This document shows positions 25,429 through 32,991 of a DNA stretch of 34,201 nt, in pieces. Numbering within the stretch: position 1 is the first letter of the stretch; each line of letters begins with the position of its first letter. A program made the position numbers and the translations under genes. Below the pieces are notes generated by a model that searched no databases, had not been told where the DNA came from, and worked only from the letters and a program-made list of their open reading frames with translations. Origin of the DNA: a virus. The DNA lies in the IMG/VR virus record IMGVR_UViG_3300038332_000016, positions 1 to 34,201 of that record; one strand, given 5' to 3'.

Positions 25429-26619
25429 TTATTTTAATTCTAAATTATTGAATCTTATTATCGATATTGATAGATCATGAAGATTTCGTTCAAAGGTACA
25501 GAACCTCATGGAAACCAGAGAATCGACCATAGTCTCCAGCATCCTTGAGTCAATGTCCCTCACGAAGATCTTCATCAGCATACCAAAACGTACCTCTTTG
25601 TATTCTTCTATTACCGACATGAGGTTGGCAATGATGTCTACATGGATATGTTTCCCTATTGTGGAGAAGACTTTCGGCATCATGATTTCGACTTCCTCCA
25701 GCGTTGTGATAGCCCGATTGAGATCATTATCGGTGATGATCATATCGTCGCTGTGTGAGGCGTTGCAAATCATTGAGAGCTTTAGTACGTGTACTTGTCT
25801 ACGGCTCATGTAGCCGTCAAAATGAGGATCCTTGAAGGGGGGATGTTCATCTTGGTACGTGTACCATTCCACCCATCGGTCGATGAATTCTTTCGTTACC
25901 TTGAAACCGCCCTTGAGAGCGTGAATTTTGGCAAGATCGATTTTAAGATTTTCGCAAATACGTTCTTCATCTTTTGTGTAAAAGACAATAGGAGTTGTTT
26001 TCGACTTGCGCTCCTCATGGACAAAAACTATACGTGAGGCAAAACCTCCACCAATCATATCGGCGGGGATAGCGTTGCGAATAGCCGTTACCGTGGTCCC
26101 TCCGAGCAGGTTGAGCCATACACCTTTTATTTCGTTGGTTCCCGATCCTTTCGTCCGATAGGTAAACGAATCGGCACAGTCGAAGAAATCGGTAAGATTG
26201 TCCATGAAAATTAGATCTTGGTTTCCAAGGAAGACTGTAAGCTCTTCGCTTATTACGGATACTGAACTGTGAGAATACGGCTTTCCATTTGCATCTTTTT
26301 CTGTTCGTTCCGATAGTTCCATGAAGTCGAAGAATGCTTCCCGTGTTGTAGCTTCGGCGCTCATCGGTATTTTTAGGCCGGCCATGAATTGCTTTCCAAC
26401 CTTGAGGGCCGTTCCCTTCCTGGTCTTGCCCGGAGGACCGACGAGTACAATGTACATGTTTGGATAGAATACAAGACCACCACCCCAATCCAGCCAGCAT
26501 TTACGCTGTAGGGCTGCGGCAATGCAAGATATGGCCACCCACTTATGGTAACTGACCGGAGGCTCAGTGTTCTCTTGGAATTTGAGATATGATTCCAGCC
26601 AGTCTTCTTCCAGCCTCAC
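25429..26619 (-). CDS. DUF3987-like replicative helicase/ATPase
   Basis: 396 aa starting at GTG in a GTGA overlap with the preceding stop and a GGAGG site. The N-terminus WVAISCIAAALQRKCW is the entry helix typical of DUF3987-type primase-helicases. The P-loop is GPPGKTRKGT (61-70), Walker B is SVISEEL (121-127), and GGFASRI (191-197) is a likely arginine-finger region. The C-terminal ~100 residues are helical and winged-helix-like. No primase domain is present. Together with the exo/UDG protein it forms the replication core of this module. Confidence 0.75.
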   Translation of the reverse strand: MRLEEDWLESYLKFQENTEPPVSYHKWVAISCIAAALQRKCWLDWGGGLVFYPNMYIVLVGPPGKTRKGTALKVGKQFMAGLKIPMSAEATTREAFFDFMELSERTEKDANGKPYSHSSVSVISEELTVFLGNQDLIFMDNLTDFFDCADSFTYRTKGSGTNEIKGVWLNLLGGTTVTAIRNAIPADMIGGGFASRIVFVHEERKSKTTPIVFYTKDEERICENLKIDLAKIHALKGGFKVTKEFIDRWVEWYTYQDEHPPFKDPHFDGYMSRRQVHVLKLSMICNASHSDDMIITDNDLNRAITTLEEVEIMMPKVFSTIGKHIHVDIIANLMSVIEEYKEVRFGMLMKIFVRDIDSRMLETMVDSLVSMRFCTFERNLHDLSISIIRFNNLELK

Positions 26620-28910
26620 AGCTCCTCCAACAGACGTTCGATATCTTTCATAACATAAATTTCGCTATGCTGCATATCGACAGCAGTTCGTTGGCTAAAC
26701 TTGTGAAATATTGACAAAATAACAGGAATAGTGAATTCTTCCCCATTGATCGTCAATGGTCTTTCCAGTTCTCGTTTAAGCGACCATAACATTTCAGCAC
26801 ATCGTAAGATATCATCGTTTTCTTCGTTGGAAACTTGTAAGAATATCTTGTTGTTGGCTATCCCTAAAAGCTGAATATCTCTAAATCTCGCCACATGATG
26901 ATAGATATGGTTTATGCCGCGATCATTAATGATGTCATTTGCCGTGCTCTTCGGAATGTACTTATAAGCTTCCAACAATAGAGCGTTATCGAATCTCCCC
27001 ATGAATTTTTGCTTTCTTCCCGTAAGATTTGTTAGCACTCTTCCGGATAATACCTGTTCTTCAATCATGGGAAAGTATTCTGTATTGATCTTTGGATAAC
27101 TATTATGAAAAGAGTCGTAAAGTTTTTTCCCATCTTTTTCAGGAATAGCTTTTAGTAAAGAGAAGGCTTTGTATCCCATACCATAAAAAAGCTCCTTACA
27201 ATCTGTATAGATATCCAGATCTTTGCTATTTATATAATTAGAAATGATATTCTCTTCCAATCTATAAAATTCTATAGCTACTCCAAGATATCCTTCATCA
27301 ACAGTTAATGCCGACCAATAGGAATCTTCTATTTTTTCTAGATCAACTCCTTTACTGTAAATATCAGATGAGCTTGTTATTTTTCCGTATCTATTTCCAA
27401 CCGGATTATAACAAGGATGAATTCTGCCGTTTGTCAACATGCTCTTGTTAAGTTTTCCTATTGTTCCCTTGATTTTTTTTGCCTTCAGTATAAGGTTGGC
27501 TTCTTCACATCCTTGCCTAGCTAATCTGATAAGAGCTGTTTCATTTACTGTAGGTTTTTTTGTTTTTCTATCTACATATACTTTGTAATTCTTCTTGCTA
27601 TTGTAAATAAATCCTCTAACTTGTGCGGGACTATCTATATTGACGGCCTTACCGGCCATTGTTTTTATTTCATTATTTATTTTTTTTTCTTGTTCTTTCA
27701 ATATTTTATTAATTGATGCTATTTCTTTCGGGTCTATGTTGATTCCTCTTTGATTCATATAGACTAAGGGATAGACTAGATTTCTTTGTCGTTGATATGC
27801 CGGGAGGTTCTCGGTTGCGGCCAACTCTTTAATTTGCTTTTTATAAATACAATAACAAGCGTAAGAGTCCATTGCATTGTAATGCCATAAATCTTGCCAT
27901 GGTCCTCCTTCTTTAAACCATTGTTTTCCCACTCCCTTATAATAAGGAATATTCGTATAAATGCTGGCTGCGAAAGCCAGTCCTTTAGAATAGTCAGGAT
28001 TAAGAATACTTTGCGCTATCATGCTGTCCTCAATATTCCGAACCTTTATGCCGTAGAGGCTAAACAGTATGGAACAATCGAATACCGCATTATGGGCAAT
28101 TGATTTAATATCTTTATTTTCAAGTAGTTGTGCTATTTTACGCCATATGCCCAGTTCATGTTCCGGAGAAAAATATTGTCCATCCCCATCAATAAATGGA
28201 ATAGATACGGCAACATTGTAATCTGCAAAACTTATGCAGCTGATCTGCCCATGGTAGGTTTCAATGTCGAAAGCATGCATTCTTTTACTGAGAAAATAAT
28301 CGATAATATTGAGACATTCCTTATATGAGGGATAAATCTTCACAATATCCCCATAATTGGGGACTATTCCATTTTTGTTTCCCTTCGCCTTTGCAATATC
28401 CTTTATTATTAGCCATTTGTTGGTAAAGACATTCTTTGGGGGGATGACTGTCGCCGGGTGGAAGCACGGAACAACGGTCTTGTCATTATTGAGGGTAGAT
28501 TCGATAATGGAACCGCGCCAATTAGTTATCCCCGATCTTCCAGTGAGGGCTTTAAGCGCTACGCCGCCGACGGCGATAACGATCTTTGCCTTACATGCTG
28601 CCAACTCCTCGGACAAAACATCAAGATAGGGAAGAGCGGGGGCTTTAAATTCGCACATTTTGCTATCAAAATAATACGACAATGGACGGTCAAGGTCCTT
28701 AATCGTATTTGTTATATAGCATTCATCACGGGCAATCTCAGCGCTCTGAAGGCACTCATCCAAAATACTTCCTGCCGGACCGGCAAACGGTTTCCCAACG
28801 CTCACTTCCACTCTCCCCGGCTGTTCACCAACAATGATGTAGGAGGCTGATGTCGGCACTCCACTGGGGCCTACCCACGTTTTGGCATTATTGGGATTCA
28901 TTTCATTCAT
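26616..28910 (-). CDS. Uracil-DNA glycosylase / 3'-5' exonuclease / degenerate family-A DNA polymerase fusion
   Basis: 764 aa. Residues ~1-180: family 4-like UDG, with GEQPG (28-32), GKPFAGPAG (39-47) and HPATVI (151-156). Residues ~210-365: DnaQ-like proofreading exonuclease with D215/E217 (FDIET), HNAVFD (273-278) and YNAMD (344-348), all intact. Residues ~375-764 align with PolA but the key motifs are altered. Motif A is IEFYRLEE (546-553; catalytic Asp replaced by Glu). The O-helix is shortened with no Arg (DCKELFYGMG, 570-579). Motif C is QVSNEE (692-697; His-Asp replaced by Ser-Asn). GRKQKF and STANDI remain. UDG-polymerase fusions are known (phage SPO1); polymerase loss is the odd feature. 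Coupled to DUF3310 upstream. Confidence 0.85.
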   Translation of the reverse strand: MNEMNPNNAKTWVGPSGVPTSASYIIVGEQPGRVEVSVGKPFAGPAGSILDECLQSAEIARDECYITNTIKDLDRPLSYYFDSKMCEFKAPALPYLDVLSEELAACKAKIVIAVGGVALKALTGRSGITNWRGSIIESTLNNDKTVVPCFHPATVIPPKNVFTNKWLIIKDIAKAKGNKNGIVPNYGDIVKIYPSYKECLNIIDYFLSKRMHAFDIETYHGQISCISFADYNVAVSIPFIDGDGQYFSPEHELGIWRKIAQLLENKDIKSIAHNAVFDCSILFSLYGIKVRNIEDSMIAQSILNPDYSKGLAFAASIYTNIPYYKGVGKQWFKEGGPWQDLWHYNAMDSYACYCIYKKQIKELAATENLPAYQRQRNLVYPLVYMNQRGINIDPKEIASINKILKEQEKKINNEIKTMAGKAVNIDSPAQVRGFIYNSKKNYKVYVDRKTKKPTVNETALIRLARQGCEEANLILKAKKIKGTIGKLNKSMLTNGRIHPCYNPVGNRYGKITSSSDIYSKGVDLEKIEDSYWSALTVDEGYLGVAIEFYRLEENIISNYINSKDLDIYTDCKELFYGMGYKAFSLLKAIPEKDGKKLYDSFHNSYPKINTEYFPMIEEQVLSGRVLTNLTGRKQKFMGRFDNALLLEAYKYIPKSTANDIINDRGINHIYHHVARFRDIQLLGIANNKIFLQVSNEENDDILRCAEMLWSLKRELERPLTINGEEFTIPVILSIFHKFSQRTAVDMQHSEIYVMKDIERLLEEL

Positions 28911-29145
28911 TTTCCTTTTTTCCTTTCAAAGTATTTTGAGAATCTAAAATTTCGGCATAAATCCTTGCCTTTCTAATATCCTCTTCCTTATTCCCTTTAA
29001 AATTAAGACGACAGACATATTTTATAATGTTGCCTAATATGAATCCTTCAAATTGCTCAGGAGTTAATTTAGCCCTCAATATTTGAAAAACTTCTATTCC
29101 TCCAACATCATAATATGAAGCCTCATCATCAAGCGGTTCATTCAT
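28903..29145 (-). CDS. DUF3310 family protein
   Basis: 80 aa with GGGAG upstream. The pattern GGIEVFQILRAKLTPEQFEGF, ILGNIIKYVCRLNFKG and EEDIRKARIYAEIL matches DUF3310, a short helical family frequent in phage replication modules (nucleotide-kinase-like annotations exist, function unproven). Its stop overlaps the start of the UDG-exo-polymerase gene. Confidence 0.8.
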   Translation of the reverse strand: MNEPLDDEASYYDVGGIEVFQILRAKLTPEQFEGFILGNIIKYVCRLNFKGNKEEDIRKARIYAEILDSQNTLKGKKENE

Positions 29146-29188
29146 CTTTTTCTCCCAAAAAAATTTTCTAATTAAATATTATAGAAAA

Positions 29189-29317
29189 TTATTTTTTATT
29201 TTCTTTTTTGCTTGTCGTTCTGGTTAAGATTCTTTTTTTCCTATTCCCCAATATTAAAACAAGGGCCGTCTTGTCGTCCATTTGTGATATTGATTTTTTC
29301 ATATTATCTAGGTTCAT
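29189..29317 (-). CDS. Tiny basic protein
   Basis: 42 aa with an excellent ribosome binding site (TTGGAGGATTT before the ATG) and an ATGA overlap with the stop of the 61-aa gene upstream. The C-terminal half is strongly basic (NRKKRILTRTTSKKENKK). Short, but the coupling and the GGAGG make it credible. Function unknown. Confidence 0.6.
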   Translation of the reverse strand: MNLDNMKKSISQMDDKTALVLILGNRKKRILTRTTSKKENKK

Positions 29318-29499
29318 AAATCCTCCAATAAAGAAGGGAGCTTATCTATTGCCGTATAGACAGCTTGTTTTCCGCCTCTTTCATTACATTCCATTAACAT
29401 TTCCAAGAATTTTCTTACGGCAAAAGCCGTAAATCCATGATGTTGGTTTTGTAAAAACTCCCTACTCTTTTCATCGATGTTGACATGCAATGCACTCAT
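29314..29499 (-). CDS. Small helical protein
   Basis: 61 aa with GGGGAG upstream. Predicted two or three helices (FTAFAVRKFLEMLMECNERG; KQAVYTAIDKLPSLLEDL) after a short strand (ALHVNID), loosely like a small DNA-binding or adaptor protein. Not recognised. Followed by the 42-aa gene in an ATGA overlap. Confidence 0.6.
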   Translation of the reverse strand: MSALHVNIDEKSREFLQNQHHGFTAFAVRKFLEMLMECNERGGKQAVYTAIDKLPSLLEDL

Positions 29500-29523
29500 G
29501 TTTCTCCCCTTGTTCCCGTCATG

Positions 29524-29549
29524 AGGGGGACCGCCGCCGGCCCCCCCCT
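29524..29549. other. GC-rich hairpin between early genes
   Basis: AGGGGG (29524-29529) and CCCCCT (29544-29549) flank a GC-rich centre containing CCGGC. It stands out in AT-rich surroundings, between the stop of the 140-aa gene and the ribosome binding site of the 61-aa gene. No T-tract follows on the - strand, so it may affect mRNA processing rather than terminate. Confidence 0.3.
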
Positions 29550-29561
29550 ATCTTTGTTTTA

Positions 29562-29984
29562 TTATTTGCCGGACTGAAAACTACGTACGTAATTTTGGCG
29601 GCCATATTCCTTTGTCTCTTCGACGCCCAGGATCGCCCATCCGGTGATCCCTACCCAATAGTCCGTATTGGGTTGTCCGTACGAATCAAACATGTCCCCT
29701 GGAGCAATTCCGAAGCATTGGGAGATTTTCTTTATCGTTCGTAATGTGGAATGGTATTTTTTCTCATCCATCCAAGATTTGTCCGGTATTCCGATGAATT
29801 TCGAAAACTCTTTATAACCGGTTTCATTGGCTATTTCGAAGATCGGCATAATATAATCATGGCCGTTCTTATCTCTACCACTTCTCACGTCGACGATCCG
29901 GAGCTTTACTTCTTCAGTAGTCTCCCATACTTCAAGTTCCTGTACATTTTCTAAATCTTCGATCAAATCGCTTAAGTCAAACAT
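29562..29984 (-). CDS. Putative ssDNA-binding / DUF669-like recombination partner
   Basis: 140 aa; GGAGG precedes the ATG, which sits one base after the upstream ATPase gene stop. The order of strands (WETTEEVKLRIVDVRSGRDK; DYIMPIFEIANETGYKEF), a helix (TLRTIKKISQCFGI) and a closing strand (WVGITGWAILGVEE...YVRSF) resembles DUF669-type OB-fold-like proteins that accompany Sak4-like ATPases. The family call is tentative. Confidence 0.5.
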   Translation of the reverse strand: MFDLSDLIEDLENVQELEVWETTEEVKLRIVDVRSGRDKNGHDYIMPIFEIANETGYKEFSKFIGIPDKSWMDEKKYHSTLRTIKKISQCFGIAPGDMFDSYGQPNTDYWVGITGWAILGVEETKEYGRQNYVRSFQSGK

Positions 29985-29985
29985 T

Positions 29986-30780
29986 TCATTCCTCCAATTT
30001 TTTAGGTGTTCTTATGGGCCATTTGGCCTTTGTTAATATATCGTTAAGATTTGGTTTCTCATATTTGTCCAACTTTCCATCTTGGCAAAGTCTCGACCTC
30101 GCCAAATTGAAACCAGTGGACGATAAAAGTATCTTGTAATCGACTCCTTTCGAATTCTCCTTCGGCTCCATTACCCATATTTCGTCGAAGAGTAGCGGCA
30201 AATAGACTGCAGCTTGACCGGGAGCCATGAATCGTTGTGTTACTTTCCCAATCAGTTCATCTTTTATGGTTTGCAAATGACCGGTGAGAACAAAATTGCA
30301 CGGCATATTTAATAGCCGTGTAGTCCAATTTTGGACAATCATTTTTTGCGGTGCATAATCATGAGACCATTGCGGTGACTCTCCGGCCCGTCCGGCCTTC
30401 TTTAGTACATGATTCATTATTGCCGAACTCCACGTTGTAGAAGAATCCAGCATGTAGGTACCGAGGTAGTCGAAAAATCCTTCCTGGCTACGCATGGCGG
30501 TTTCTCTGGCCCAAGTATCGAATGCCGACGGACGGTATGGATCTTCATCCTCCCACCTTGAATCAACAATGACATCTCCCTTATCAATCCATGGTTGTAA
30601 GCACTTGGAGCCGCCGCGGTCAAAGCTGTCGATAAATACCGGCTTTGGTGCCGTCCGCATAAGGAAGGTCTTGCCGCTTCCCGACTCTCCCAACAGCAAG
30701 ATGTTAAGGCTCTTGCTTGCCGGGTTGTCTTTGTACTGTTGCCGTATTTCGGAGCAGTATTTTTTTATGTCAAGACTCAT
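29986..30780 (-). CDS. Sak4-like P-loop recombination ATPase
   Basis: 264 aa from the ATG at 30780 with GGAGG upstream, overlapping the nuclease gene by 11 bases. Walker A is GESGSGKT (31-38) and the Walker B-like strand YLGTYMLDSSTTW spans 105-117. FVLTGHLQTIKDE and LFDEIWVMEP are further core strands of the RecA-type fold. Phage Sak4 proteins act in single-strand annealing or strand exchange during replication and repair. Neighbours (RecB-like nuclease, DUF669-like protein) support that role. Confidence 0.7.
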   Translation of the reverse strand: MSLDIKKYCSEIRQQYKDNPASKSLNILLLGESGSGKTFLMRTAPKPVFIDSFDRGGSKCLQPWIDKGDVIVDSRWEDEDPYRPSAFDTWARETAMRSQEGFFDYLGTYMLDSSTTWSSAIMNHVLKKAGRAGESPQWSHDYAPQKMIVQNWTTRLLNMPCNFVLTGHLQTIKDELIGKVTQRFMAPGQAAVYLPLLFDEIWVMEPKENSKGVDYKILLSSTGFNLARSRLCQDGKLDKYEKPNLNDILTKAKWPIRTPKKLEE

Positions 30781-31756
30781 CTCTTTTACCTCCAATTTCC
30801 ATTGAGTGTTTCGCCTCCCGTTCCGTCGGGTCCCAGAATTTAACTTCGAAACCGGGCGGTGGTTCATTACAATATCTTAAGGGGTTCGGCCATGCCGAGC
30901 AGAGATCGCGATACCTACAACCAAAATATTTATCACATGCCGTAACATTCATTGGAAAAGCCACAAGGGCTTGGTCCGATATTTTGCTTAAAGATAACAA
31001 CAAGTATTCGTTGTCCAACTGCTCCATCCAGTATCTGATATTGTGCCACCATGACAACATCTGATTGTTAGTCCTGATAACCTTTACTCGGCCGAAGTCC
31101 AATTGTCGGGCCGGATCTTTTACCTTATTAAAGAAGATCCCATTAAATATAATCCCGAAGACATCTTCAAACGCTTGTCGTAGGACATGGGTATAAATTC
31201 CGGCCTGTAGACTTAGTTCCCATTTCTCCCGCCATTGCTTGTTAAGGCGTGTCCCGGTTTTATGTTCTAAGCTGCCGAACTCCTCGGTCTCAACATTCTT
31301 CACGATGGAATCCATCCTGAAGAATATATGATACTGATCATCGAGAGATATTTTCCCCGCAATCTCCGTATAAATGATTTTGTATCTCTCCCTATCTTCA
31401 TGATATTTTTTACAATATGCATGCAAAGCCTTTCTGGCCGCAGCCGGAGTTTTCGGCTCAAACATGCTATCGAGATGCTCCGGAATTTCCTTCCTATACG
31501 ATAGGAGAAACTTATCGTATGCTTCATCCGCATATTTTTCATCGTATCCGTTAATCAACAAGTACTCTAAGCCGTCATGCAGGGCTTGCCCAAAGACCAA
31601 GTGATTGTTAATCATGGAGCTCCGCCAACCCAAGAGATAATGATAAAAGAATTCTCTCTGACACTGCATAAAGGTAGTAAGCTTCGATCCGTCGATTATT
31701 TGGTGGGTAGGATGCGAGGGAATCGGCAGTATGTAGTCCAGCATTGCTTCACCCAT
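30770..31756 (-). CDS. PD-(D/E)XK nuclease, RecB/Cas4-like with Fe-S cysteines
   Basis: 328 aa. Motifs in order: SKLTTFMQCQREF (24-36), H60 in GQALHDGLEYL, D149 in FRMDSI, E164-x-K166 in SLEHKTG and Q184 in LSLQAGIY. C32 with C274, C280 and C286 fit the four-cysteine iron-sulfur arrangement of AddB/Cas4-type exonucleases. It probably resects DNA ends for the Sak4-like annealing module. ATG at 31756 or, with a better site (GGTGA), at 31744. Confidence 0.8.
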   Translation of the reverse strand: MGEAMLDYILPIPSHPTHQIIDGSKLTTFMQCQREFFYHYLLGWRSSMINNHLVFGQALHDGLEYLLINGYDEKYADEAYDKFLLSYRKEIPEHLDSMFEPKTPAAARKALHAYCKKYHEDRERYKIIYTEIAGKISLDDQYHIFFRMDSIVKNVETEEFGSLEHKTGTRLNKQWREKWELSLQAGIYTHVLRQAFEDVFGIIFNGIFFNKVKDPARQLDFGRVKVIRTNNQMLSWWHNIRYWMEQLDNEYLLLSLSKISDQALVAFPMNVTACDKYFGCRYRDLCSAWPNPLRYCNEPPPGFEVKFWDPTEREAKHSMEIGGKRDES

Positions 31757-32229: not shown

Positions 32230-32991
32230 TTATTTTTGTGCCAAAAACAACATTTCCAACTTATCAGCCATCCATTCAATGGAATGATCGGCAAACGGAT
32301 CAGCCGCCGCTTCAATATAATTCTTAATATTTCCAAAACATACATCAGGATATCTATCCCATGGCTTTATTTCAAAGTCCATGGTTCCATCCCTGTGGAA
32401 ATATACTTGGGTGCCGACCTGCCTATATCCCCAAGATGCCGGAGGCAACCTTGGAACTGGATCAAGGTGTCGGGTGAAGGTCCATGTCGTCTCGCCGAAT
32501 CTTCGATCGAAATCTTCAGCAAAGTCTTTGTCCCCCACTCTCGGGGCACAAAACGCATAACATGCATCATATCCTAAGCATCTGGAAATTATGGCTTGAG
32601 CTGCGCCCAACGAATGGCCGGCCGCAATCTTCCGCGAATCATGAAACCTACTAAGGGATGAATGTAATTTGTGAATAATGGAGCCAAAAGCATGCAGGAA
32701 CCCTGCATGTACTTTTCCCTCAGAAATTAGCGAATCTTTAAGGTTAAAAGTGAAATCAGTAAGCCAATCCTTTATTTTATCGGGTTCCGTCCCCCGGAAT
32801 ACAGTCCATAATATTCCGTTGTTATCCCCTACGATATACGCTTGAGTGTCGGTTTCGTTCGATTTAATATAATCAATGAACTTCAATTGCTGCCCTTCAG
32901 TAATCTTCAGATAAAATTGTTCCGGATCAAGGTAAGCCCACTGGCTGAGCCTTGCCGCTGTCGAAGCTTCACTTAATCGTAATCTTTCCAT
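32230..32991 (-). CDS. Class 3 lipase (alpha/beta hydrolase)
   Basis: 253 aa; GGAGATAAG precedes the ATG. Family landmarks: FRGTEPDKIKDWLTDF (65-80, oxyanion region), VHAGFLHAF (94-102), nucleophile elbow GHSLG (125-129, S127), LDPVPRLPP (176-184, D177) and a downstream His in DHSIEW (H236), giving a full catalytic triad. No signal peptide or membrane segment. Class 3 lipases cleave acylglycerols or phospholipids. Here it could help lysis, remodel host lipid or counter a defence; nothing in the sequence decides. Confidence 0.85.
   Translation of the reverse strand: MERLRLSEASTAARLSQWAYLDPEQFYLKITEGQQLKFIDYIKSNETDTQAYIVGDNNGILWTVFRGTEPDKIKDWLTDFTFNLKDSLISEGKVHAGFLHAFGSIIHKLHSSLSRFHDSRKIAAGHSLGAAQAIISRCLGYDACYAFCAPRVGDKDFAEDFDRRFGETTWTFTRHLDPVPRLPPASWGYRQVGTQVYFHRDGTMDFEIKPWDRYPDVCFGNIKNYIEAAADPFADHSIEWMADKLEMLFLAQK

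Follow-up and report, generated by a model that had tools for sequence, protein, structure and literature searches.

We analyzed the putative DNA polymerase gene of the IMG/VR record IMGVR_UViG_3300038332_000016, a linear 34,201-bp fragment of a phage genome, the whole of which is called the window here. The gene at 26616-28910 on the minus strand is an uninterrupted open reading frame (ORF) of 764 residues from a virus of bacteria, and it encodes a fusion of a uracil-DNA glycosylase (UDG), a DEDDy 3'-5' exonuclease and a degenerate family-A polymerase. The polymerase residues are lost, the UDG and exonuclease residues are kept, the polymerase half has evolved faster than the rest, and the frame is open with a preserved hydrophobic core. 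Our explanation, which we regard as probable, is that the protein is a dead family-A pseudo-polymerase carrying a working UDG and a working DEDDy exonuclease, retained under selection as a scaffold, while the genome is replicated by the host replicase. An initial annotation had described a destroyed polymerase active site beside intact UDG and exonuclease motifs. The comparison with relatives agrees with this description and strengthens it, since 93 of 93 relatives keep the residues that the window has lost.

Domain Organization of the Fusion Protein

The coordinates of this gene, its domains and its neighbors are given on the minus strand. Pfam searches with the 764-residue protein detected UDG at residues 19-156, DNA_pol_A_exo1 at 213-360 and DNA_pol_A in two stretches, one of them at 396-514. 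The DNA_pol_A match was weakened, being strong over 396-514 only. The score of PF00476 (50.8 bits; cut-off, 34.3) shows descent from family A polymerases. The polymerase half consists of a thumb or N-terminal part (residues 370-520; 27351-27803), which evolves rapidly with its core kept, and a degenerate palm (residues 521-764; 26619-27350), in which the fingers are mostly deleted.

Loss of the Polymerase Active Site

The alignment with UDG-PolA relatives, which the initial annotation had recommended, contained 94 full-length sequences: the window protein and 93 relatives from phages of about 44-52 kb, 91 of which reach motif C. The window protein departs from an active family A polymerase at all three motifs. 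In former motif A (residues 544-554, VAIEFYRLEEN; 27249-27281), the catalytic Asp (Klenow D705) is replaced by Glu547, as had been annotated; all 93 relatives possess Asp in a DLSQxENR-type motif. At former motif C, the His-Asp pair (Klenow H881-D882), present in 91 of 91 readable relatives, is Asn686-Asn687 (26850-26855). The pair had been read as Ser-Asn, but the 'QVSN' a few residues further on aligns with 'FQIP'. In motif B (O-helix), R754, K758 and position 762 are deleted, and the Arg and Lys are present in 93/93 relatives.

Two deletions were found, both in frame. One removes 9 residues at the junction of residues 561 and 562 (27227-27228), and the other, between residues 575 and 576 (27185-27186), removes 36 residues that include the entire O-helix. 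The dNTP-binding (deoxynucleoside triphosphate-binding) Arg is thus gone, as annotated, but the O-helix is absent as a whole and not shortened. The tblastn segments flanking this gap lie 42 bp apart in the window, and six-frame translation of the gap region revealed no O-helix motif in another frame. A frameshift concealing the fingers was ruled out by these two results.

Other residues of the site were also lost. The equivalents of H734, R714 and R668 are invariant in the 93 relatives, and all are substituted in the window. In Klenow numbering, the substitutions are R668>K (K510), N675>D, N678>K, R714>N (N554), H734>Y (Y568) and Q849>K (K654). Only the equivalents of E710 (Glu552) and Y766 (Tyr576) are still present. 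Among the 94 aligned sequences, the window alone has lost all of these polymerase residues. Since 93/93 relatives keep them, the loss of the motif residues is not a matter of chance. From the sequence, we infer that the polymerase half is catalytically dead and has no polymerase activity. Because R668, N675, N678, R714, H734 and Q849 are substituted, canonical primer-template binding by the fusion protein is doubtful. The annotation had suggested that the fold may be retained to bind DNA. This is supported in part: the fold appears to be retained, but the Klenow primer-template contacts are substituted, which argues against binding of the canonical kind.

Constraint on the Polymerase Half

We compared the domains at columns with at least 95% conservation in the family. 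The window keeps 22/23 such columns in the UDG, 27/29 in the exonuclease, 16/26 in the thumb and 16/40 in the palm and fingers. In the palm and fingers, the majority of the relatives tested retain 37-40 of 40-42 columns, and the lowest value was 31/42 (L133). On a fixed tree, the tip branch of the window measured 0.81 substitutions per site for the UDG, 0.83 for the exonuclease, 2.06 for the thumb and 3.18 for the palm and fingers; the median branch of the other tips was 0.23-0.26 in each domain. On the window branch, the evolutionary rate of thumb and palm was thus 2.5-4 times that of UDG and exonuclease.

The polymerase half comprises about 395 codons at about 35% identity without a stop or a frameshift, its deletions are all in frame, and its codon usage is like that of the phage's other genes. 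Neutral decay was simulated from the palm of L009, the closest full-length relative, used as a stand-in for the ancestor under a simple mutation model, so that the following frequencies are a guide and not an exact test. A stop was gained in 400/400 runs before the identity fell below about 0.69; the identity of the window palm is about 0.34. Columns of the hydrophobic core (hydrophobic in at least 90% of the relatives) are kept at 34/34 positions in the thumb and 58/63 in the palm, 92/97 in total. In stop-free neutral runs, this retention was reached in 0/300 at an identity of 0.63 or less and in 2/300 at 0.75. The test with the palm only was weaker (7/300 at 0.63 and 23/300 at 0.75).

Because the open frame and the core retention are unmatched by neutral decay, they read as continuing selection on the fold after catalysis was lost, and not as a pseudogene or a sequencing error. 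The open frame, the in-frame deletions and the preserved core differ from what a pseudogene would have, and the earlier remark that this gene is not a simple pseudogene holds, with 92/97 core columns against 0-2 of 300 neutral runs.

UDG and Exonuclease Domains

The UDG domain (residues 15-177; 28380-28868; PF03167, E 8.7e-20) keeps G28-E29-Q30-P31-G32, F42, N68 and H151 (H151-P152), that is, GEQPG, PFAG, TN and HP. These match the GExPG, PF.G, TN and HP motifs of the UDG superfamily, and PF03167 scored 71.7 bits against a cut-off of 24.3. The domain resembles UdgX and family 4 UDGs in fold (6l6s; Z 23.5, 27% identity, 1.9 Å) and in its UdgX-like GEQPG. In contrast to them, it falls under the NCBIfam cut-offs (TIGR00758, 70.4 versus 125.3 bits; TIGR03914, 75.5 versus 190 bits) and lacks the N-terminal CxxC for a 4Fe-4S cluster, which was found in 0/94 aligned sequences.

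In the exonuclease domain (residues 205-362; 27825-28298), the DEDDy residues D215, E217, D278, Y344 and D348 are all present and are invariant in 94/94 sequences. PF01612 was over its cut-off (E 1.4e-13), consistent with a DEDDy 3'-5' exonuclease of the DNA_pol_A_exo1 type. Judging from the retained residues, the UDG and the exonuclease of the window protein are predicted to be active.

Degeneration in the opposite direction was observed in other homologues. The UDG catalytic residues are lost in the Desulfofustis phage L003 (11779-14259), L115, L116 and L118 and partly in L111 and L129; Asn is replaced by Tyr, and His by Asp or Asn. The polymerase and exonuclease of these homologues are intact.

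Predicted Structure

Structure modeling had also been recommended in the initial annotation. The AlphaFold2 model of the window protein (71 sequences) showed a mean pLDDT of 90.0 and a pTM of 0.89, with most of the palm above 85; the values for intact L009 were 90.9 and 0.88. The window model resembles Klenow and Pol theta, with Z 29-30 across about 530 residues; the thumb-palm fold is recognizable, and the L009 model gave Z 32 with Klenow. The palm strands are kept. The fingers helices matching L009 residues 582-589, 594-603 and 626-638, the last of which is the O-helix, are missing. N686-N687 lie at a hairpin turn between predicted strands 679-685 and 688-694, where motif C belongs. In a fold search against viral structures, only low matches were obtained, none beyond phage PolA.

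Escherichia coli DNA polymerase I Klenow thus shares the exonuclease and the thumb-palm fold with the window protein (VIA-align, Z 29.3 to 1kfs over 528 residues, 4.0 Å). Unlike Klenow, the window protein lacks the catalytic Asp pair, the O-helix, the dNTP contacts and most template contacts, and it has an extra N-terminal UDG.

Relatives and Search for Another Polymerase

In scans of viral and genome contigs, homologues were detected at well over 100 loci. Among the full-length relatives, L009 (IMGVR_UViG_3300019861_000001) is the closest, with 39% identity over 750 residues. Its UDG and exonuclease are 55% and 52% identical to those of the window, but its palm is only 33% identical, and its own motifs are intact (DLSQAENR, SERFWGKKSNH and VHDS). 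Among named proteins, the nearest is the 'DNA polymerase' of Desulfofustis phage LS06-2018-MD01 (WBK39748.1, OP947158.1), with 31% identity over the full length. The two phages have the domain order, the primase neighbor and the replication module in common. Unlike the window protein, this polymerase has intact polymerase motifs, its UDG catalytic Asn and His are replaced by Tyr and Asn, and its phage has a ParB-like gene, which the window does not.

The polymerase half did not come from another, separately inactivated family, because its best match is this same family. No close sister of the window was detected by scanning viral contigs with the full protein or the palm half. The terminase scan of viral contigs gave two matches at 39%, and an intact UDG-Pol is present in one of them. 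A DNA-level search of phage records with the replication region gave no match, and a search of plasmids gave distant PolA and UDG matches only.

A single PolA gene was found in each of the 27 near-complete relatives (44-52 kb); in two records, this gene is interrupted and appears as two pieces. None of the 27 has a Pol III alpha gene. No second polymerase was found among the window proteins examined, as the initial annotation had implied.

Some relatives carry interrupted genes. The UDG-Pol gene is split into two ORFs in L053, L125, L127, L071/L072 and L008 (5953-9087); the frames overlap in L125, L127 and L071/L072, and a foreign ORF lies between the halves in the Vibrio phage L008. Homologues of 1123-1149 residues in L045 (4529-7975), L051 (7968-11417), L060 (5530-8901), L131 and L132 look intein-bearing. 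The insert in L051 and L060 sits within the O-helix (GKK^..^NH), and the 36-residue deletion of the window spans exactly that site. In intein-bearing or split relatives, the polymerase motifs are kept wherever readable.

Replication Module and Other Features of the Window

The fusion gene lies in a minus-strand module. In order, this consists of a PD-(D/E)XK exonuclease (30770-31756; PF12705, E 3.5e-12; phrog_1218), a Sak4-like AAA ATPase (29986-30867; phrog_124, E 1.5e-19; homologues in 89 loci, up to 51%), a conserved 140-residue protein that is SSB-like by position only (29562-29984; homologues in 98 loci, no family match), a DUF3310 protein directly upstream of the fusion gene (28903-29145; PF11753, E 1.9e-19), the UDG-Pol and a DUF3987/primase-like gene (25429-26619; PF13148; phrog_14296, E 2.6e-59; homologues in 107 loci), the start of which shares 4 bp with the stop end of the fusion gene. 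The order of nuclease, Sak4, 140-residue protein, UDG-Pol and primase is common to most relatives.

A ParB-like/DNA-methyltransferase fusion lies beside UDG-Pol in 119 loci (for example, L009:2356-3789). The gene is present in nearly all relatives, and no match to it was found in the window (gap 28910-29562). The distance from the 140-residue gene to UDG-Pol is at least 1.9 kb (median, 3.5 kb) in 98 relatives versus 0.65 kb in the window; the ParB-like fusion is part of the sequence lost from this interval. The joint loss of the ParB-like gene and polymerase activity suggests a wider change of replication strategy; causality is not implied.

Upstream of the terminase genes, a perfect 25-bp tandem repeat of 3.8 copies (ACAAAATTTCCAATTTTTTTATTCT) occupies 540-633, and it is possibly an origin or a regulatory array. 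Short-period repeats were found at 9-60 (GCTGTGA/GCTGTGG, at the contig end) and at 995-1105 (TCAAGG x19, within the ORF of the putative small terminase). The early region of the phage also includes a class 3 lipase-like gene (32230-32991; PF01764, E 1.4e-21).

Explanation and Alternatives

In this phage group, the ancestral protein would have been the sole replicative polymerase. The window lineage would have lost the polymerase chemistry as the metal-binding Asp residues were replaced and the fingers and O-helix were deleted in frame. The gene may have been retained because the UDG and 3'-5' exonuclease functions were still selected. The thumb-palm fold may have been retained as a scaffold that seats the exonuclease and the UDG, or as a protein-docking surface, with the DNA and dNTP contacts under relaxed constraint. 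The UDG would take out uracil and the DEDDy domain would trim 3' ends, and the genome would be replicated by the host replicase with the phage primase, the Sak4-like ATPase and the PD-(D/E)XK nuclease. Since the relatives possess one PolA and no Pol III alpha, and no other polymerase was found in the window, use of the host replicase is the simplest inference. The proofreading role proposed in the initial annotation would call for a partner polymerase, and the analysis found no sign of one. Only tentatively do we propose the stronger claim, that a phage group turned its only replicative polymerase into a UDG/3'-5' exonuclease subunit, a non-catalytic, non-canonically binding scaffold beside the host replicase.

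Several points weigh against a selected scaffold in a host-replicated phage. The window is a linear fragment, about 10-15 kb of the genome is possibly unseen, and another polymerase may lie there. The GC content of the palm is 0.353 versus 0.489 in the UDG, a difference that lies outside the range of the relatives and that relaxed selection alone would give. The case is a single sequence, and no closer relative shares the dead site, so that this state may not be stable over time. L055 and L122, the nearest in UDG and exonuclease, end at a contig edge before the polymerase half, and the missing half of L055 was not found elsewhere in its record. The argument for UDG and exonuclease activity is one of retained residues. 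Moreover, the alignment behind the model consists of intact relatives, which makes the good modeled fold weak evidence and no independent proof.

The first two of these points are also those of the strongest alternative, in which the polymerase half is an unselected, decaying remnant, its open frame reflects recent decay, and a replacement replicase is encoded on the unseen 10-15 kb. The 34-kb length against 44-52 kb in the relatives, the acceleration and AT drift of this half, and the otherwise reduced module without the ParB-methyltransferase gene fit such a remnant. However, about 395 codons carry no stop or frameshift, neutral runs gain stops far earlier and lose the hydrophobic core, and 0/27 near-complete relatives have a Pol III alpha or a second PolA gene. 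We consider a remnant unlikely.

Somewhat less likely again is that a polymerase of the host or the phage uses the dead half as a regulatory or docking subunit, which would provide it with UDG and proofreading in trans. The fold is kept despite the lost catalysis and DNA contacts, and there is precedent for inactivated polymerases in complexes, namely the Pol epsilon module and ImuB (PMC2669801; PMC12926913), but no partner, interaction surface or direct evidence was found.

That the protein is still a polymerase, using Glu547, nearby acidic residues (E694/E695/D696 after motif C) and minimal fingers, is very improbable: Glu552 and Tyr576 are kept and Glu could in principle bind metal, but both metal-binding Asp residues, H734, R754, K758, position 762 and the template contacts are changed or deleted together, and the O-helix that closes on the dNTP is missing from the model. 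An assembly or sequencing artefact, a chimera or an error cluster, is equally hard to credit: this is one metagenomic contig whose second copy was not found in viral contigs, but the losses affect three separate motifs, every deletion preserves the frame, the coding signal and core pattern are kept, and the best match to the same family means that the half was not joined to an unrelated gene.

Relation to Known Polymerases and Implications

Inactivated polymerases are known in family B, as the PolB module of Pol epsilon (PMC2669801), and in family Y, as ImuB/iPolY (PMC12926913). In these modules, as in the window protein, the polymerase fold outlasts the catalytic residues. Unlike them, the window protein belongs to family A, comes from a phage and derives from the only recognized polymerase of its relatives. 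In the part of the literature searched, neither an inactivated domain of a family-A phage polymerase nor such a UDG fusion turned up. If the stronger, tentative claim of a polymerase turned into a UDG/exonuclease subunit is correct, the protein would be for family A what the inactivated PolB and PolY modules are for families B and Y, as represented by a single sequence.

One survey of phage polA admitted a sequence only if it had D705, K758 and F, L or Y at 762 (PMC9069017), and another sorts by F, Y or L at 762 (PMC6302109). Because the surveys filter on residues lost here, proteins of this kind drop out unseen. The equivalent of Klenow F762 is His in 93/93 relatives (for example, H635 of L009). 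The whole His762 family may therefore be missing from both surveys (PMC6302109; PMC9069017), since they sort by F, Y or L at this position and one discards all else.

Within this family, the UDG and polymerase parts appear to have been lost separately (the UDG in L003, L115, L116 and L118; the polymerase in the window), and the exonuclease is invariant. The separate losses and the invariant exonuclease make this family a good system for asking which activity phages need. Phage polA is widely taken as a marker of a phage that replicates its own DNA. If our explanation holds, the presence of polA would not imply that a phage encodes its own replicase. A lineage of phages would have switched from copying its genome itself to having it copied by the host, with the parts for proofreading and uracil excision retained.

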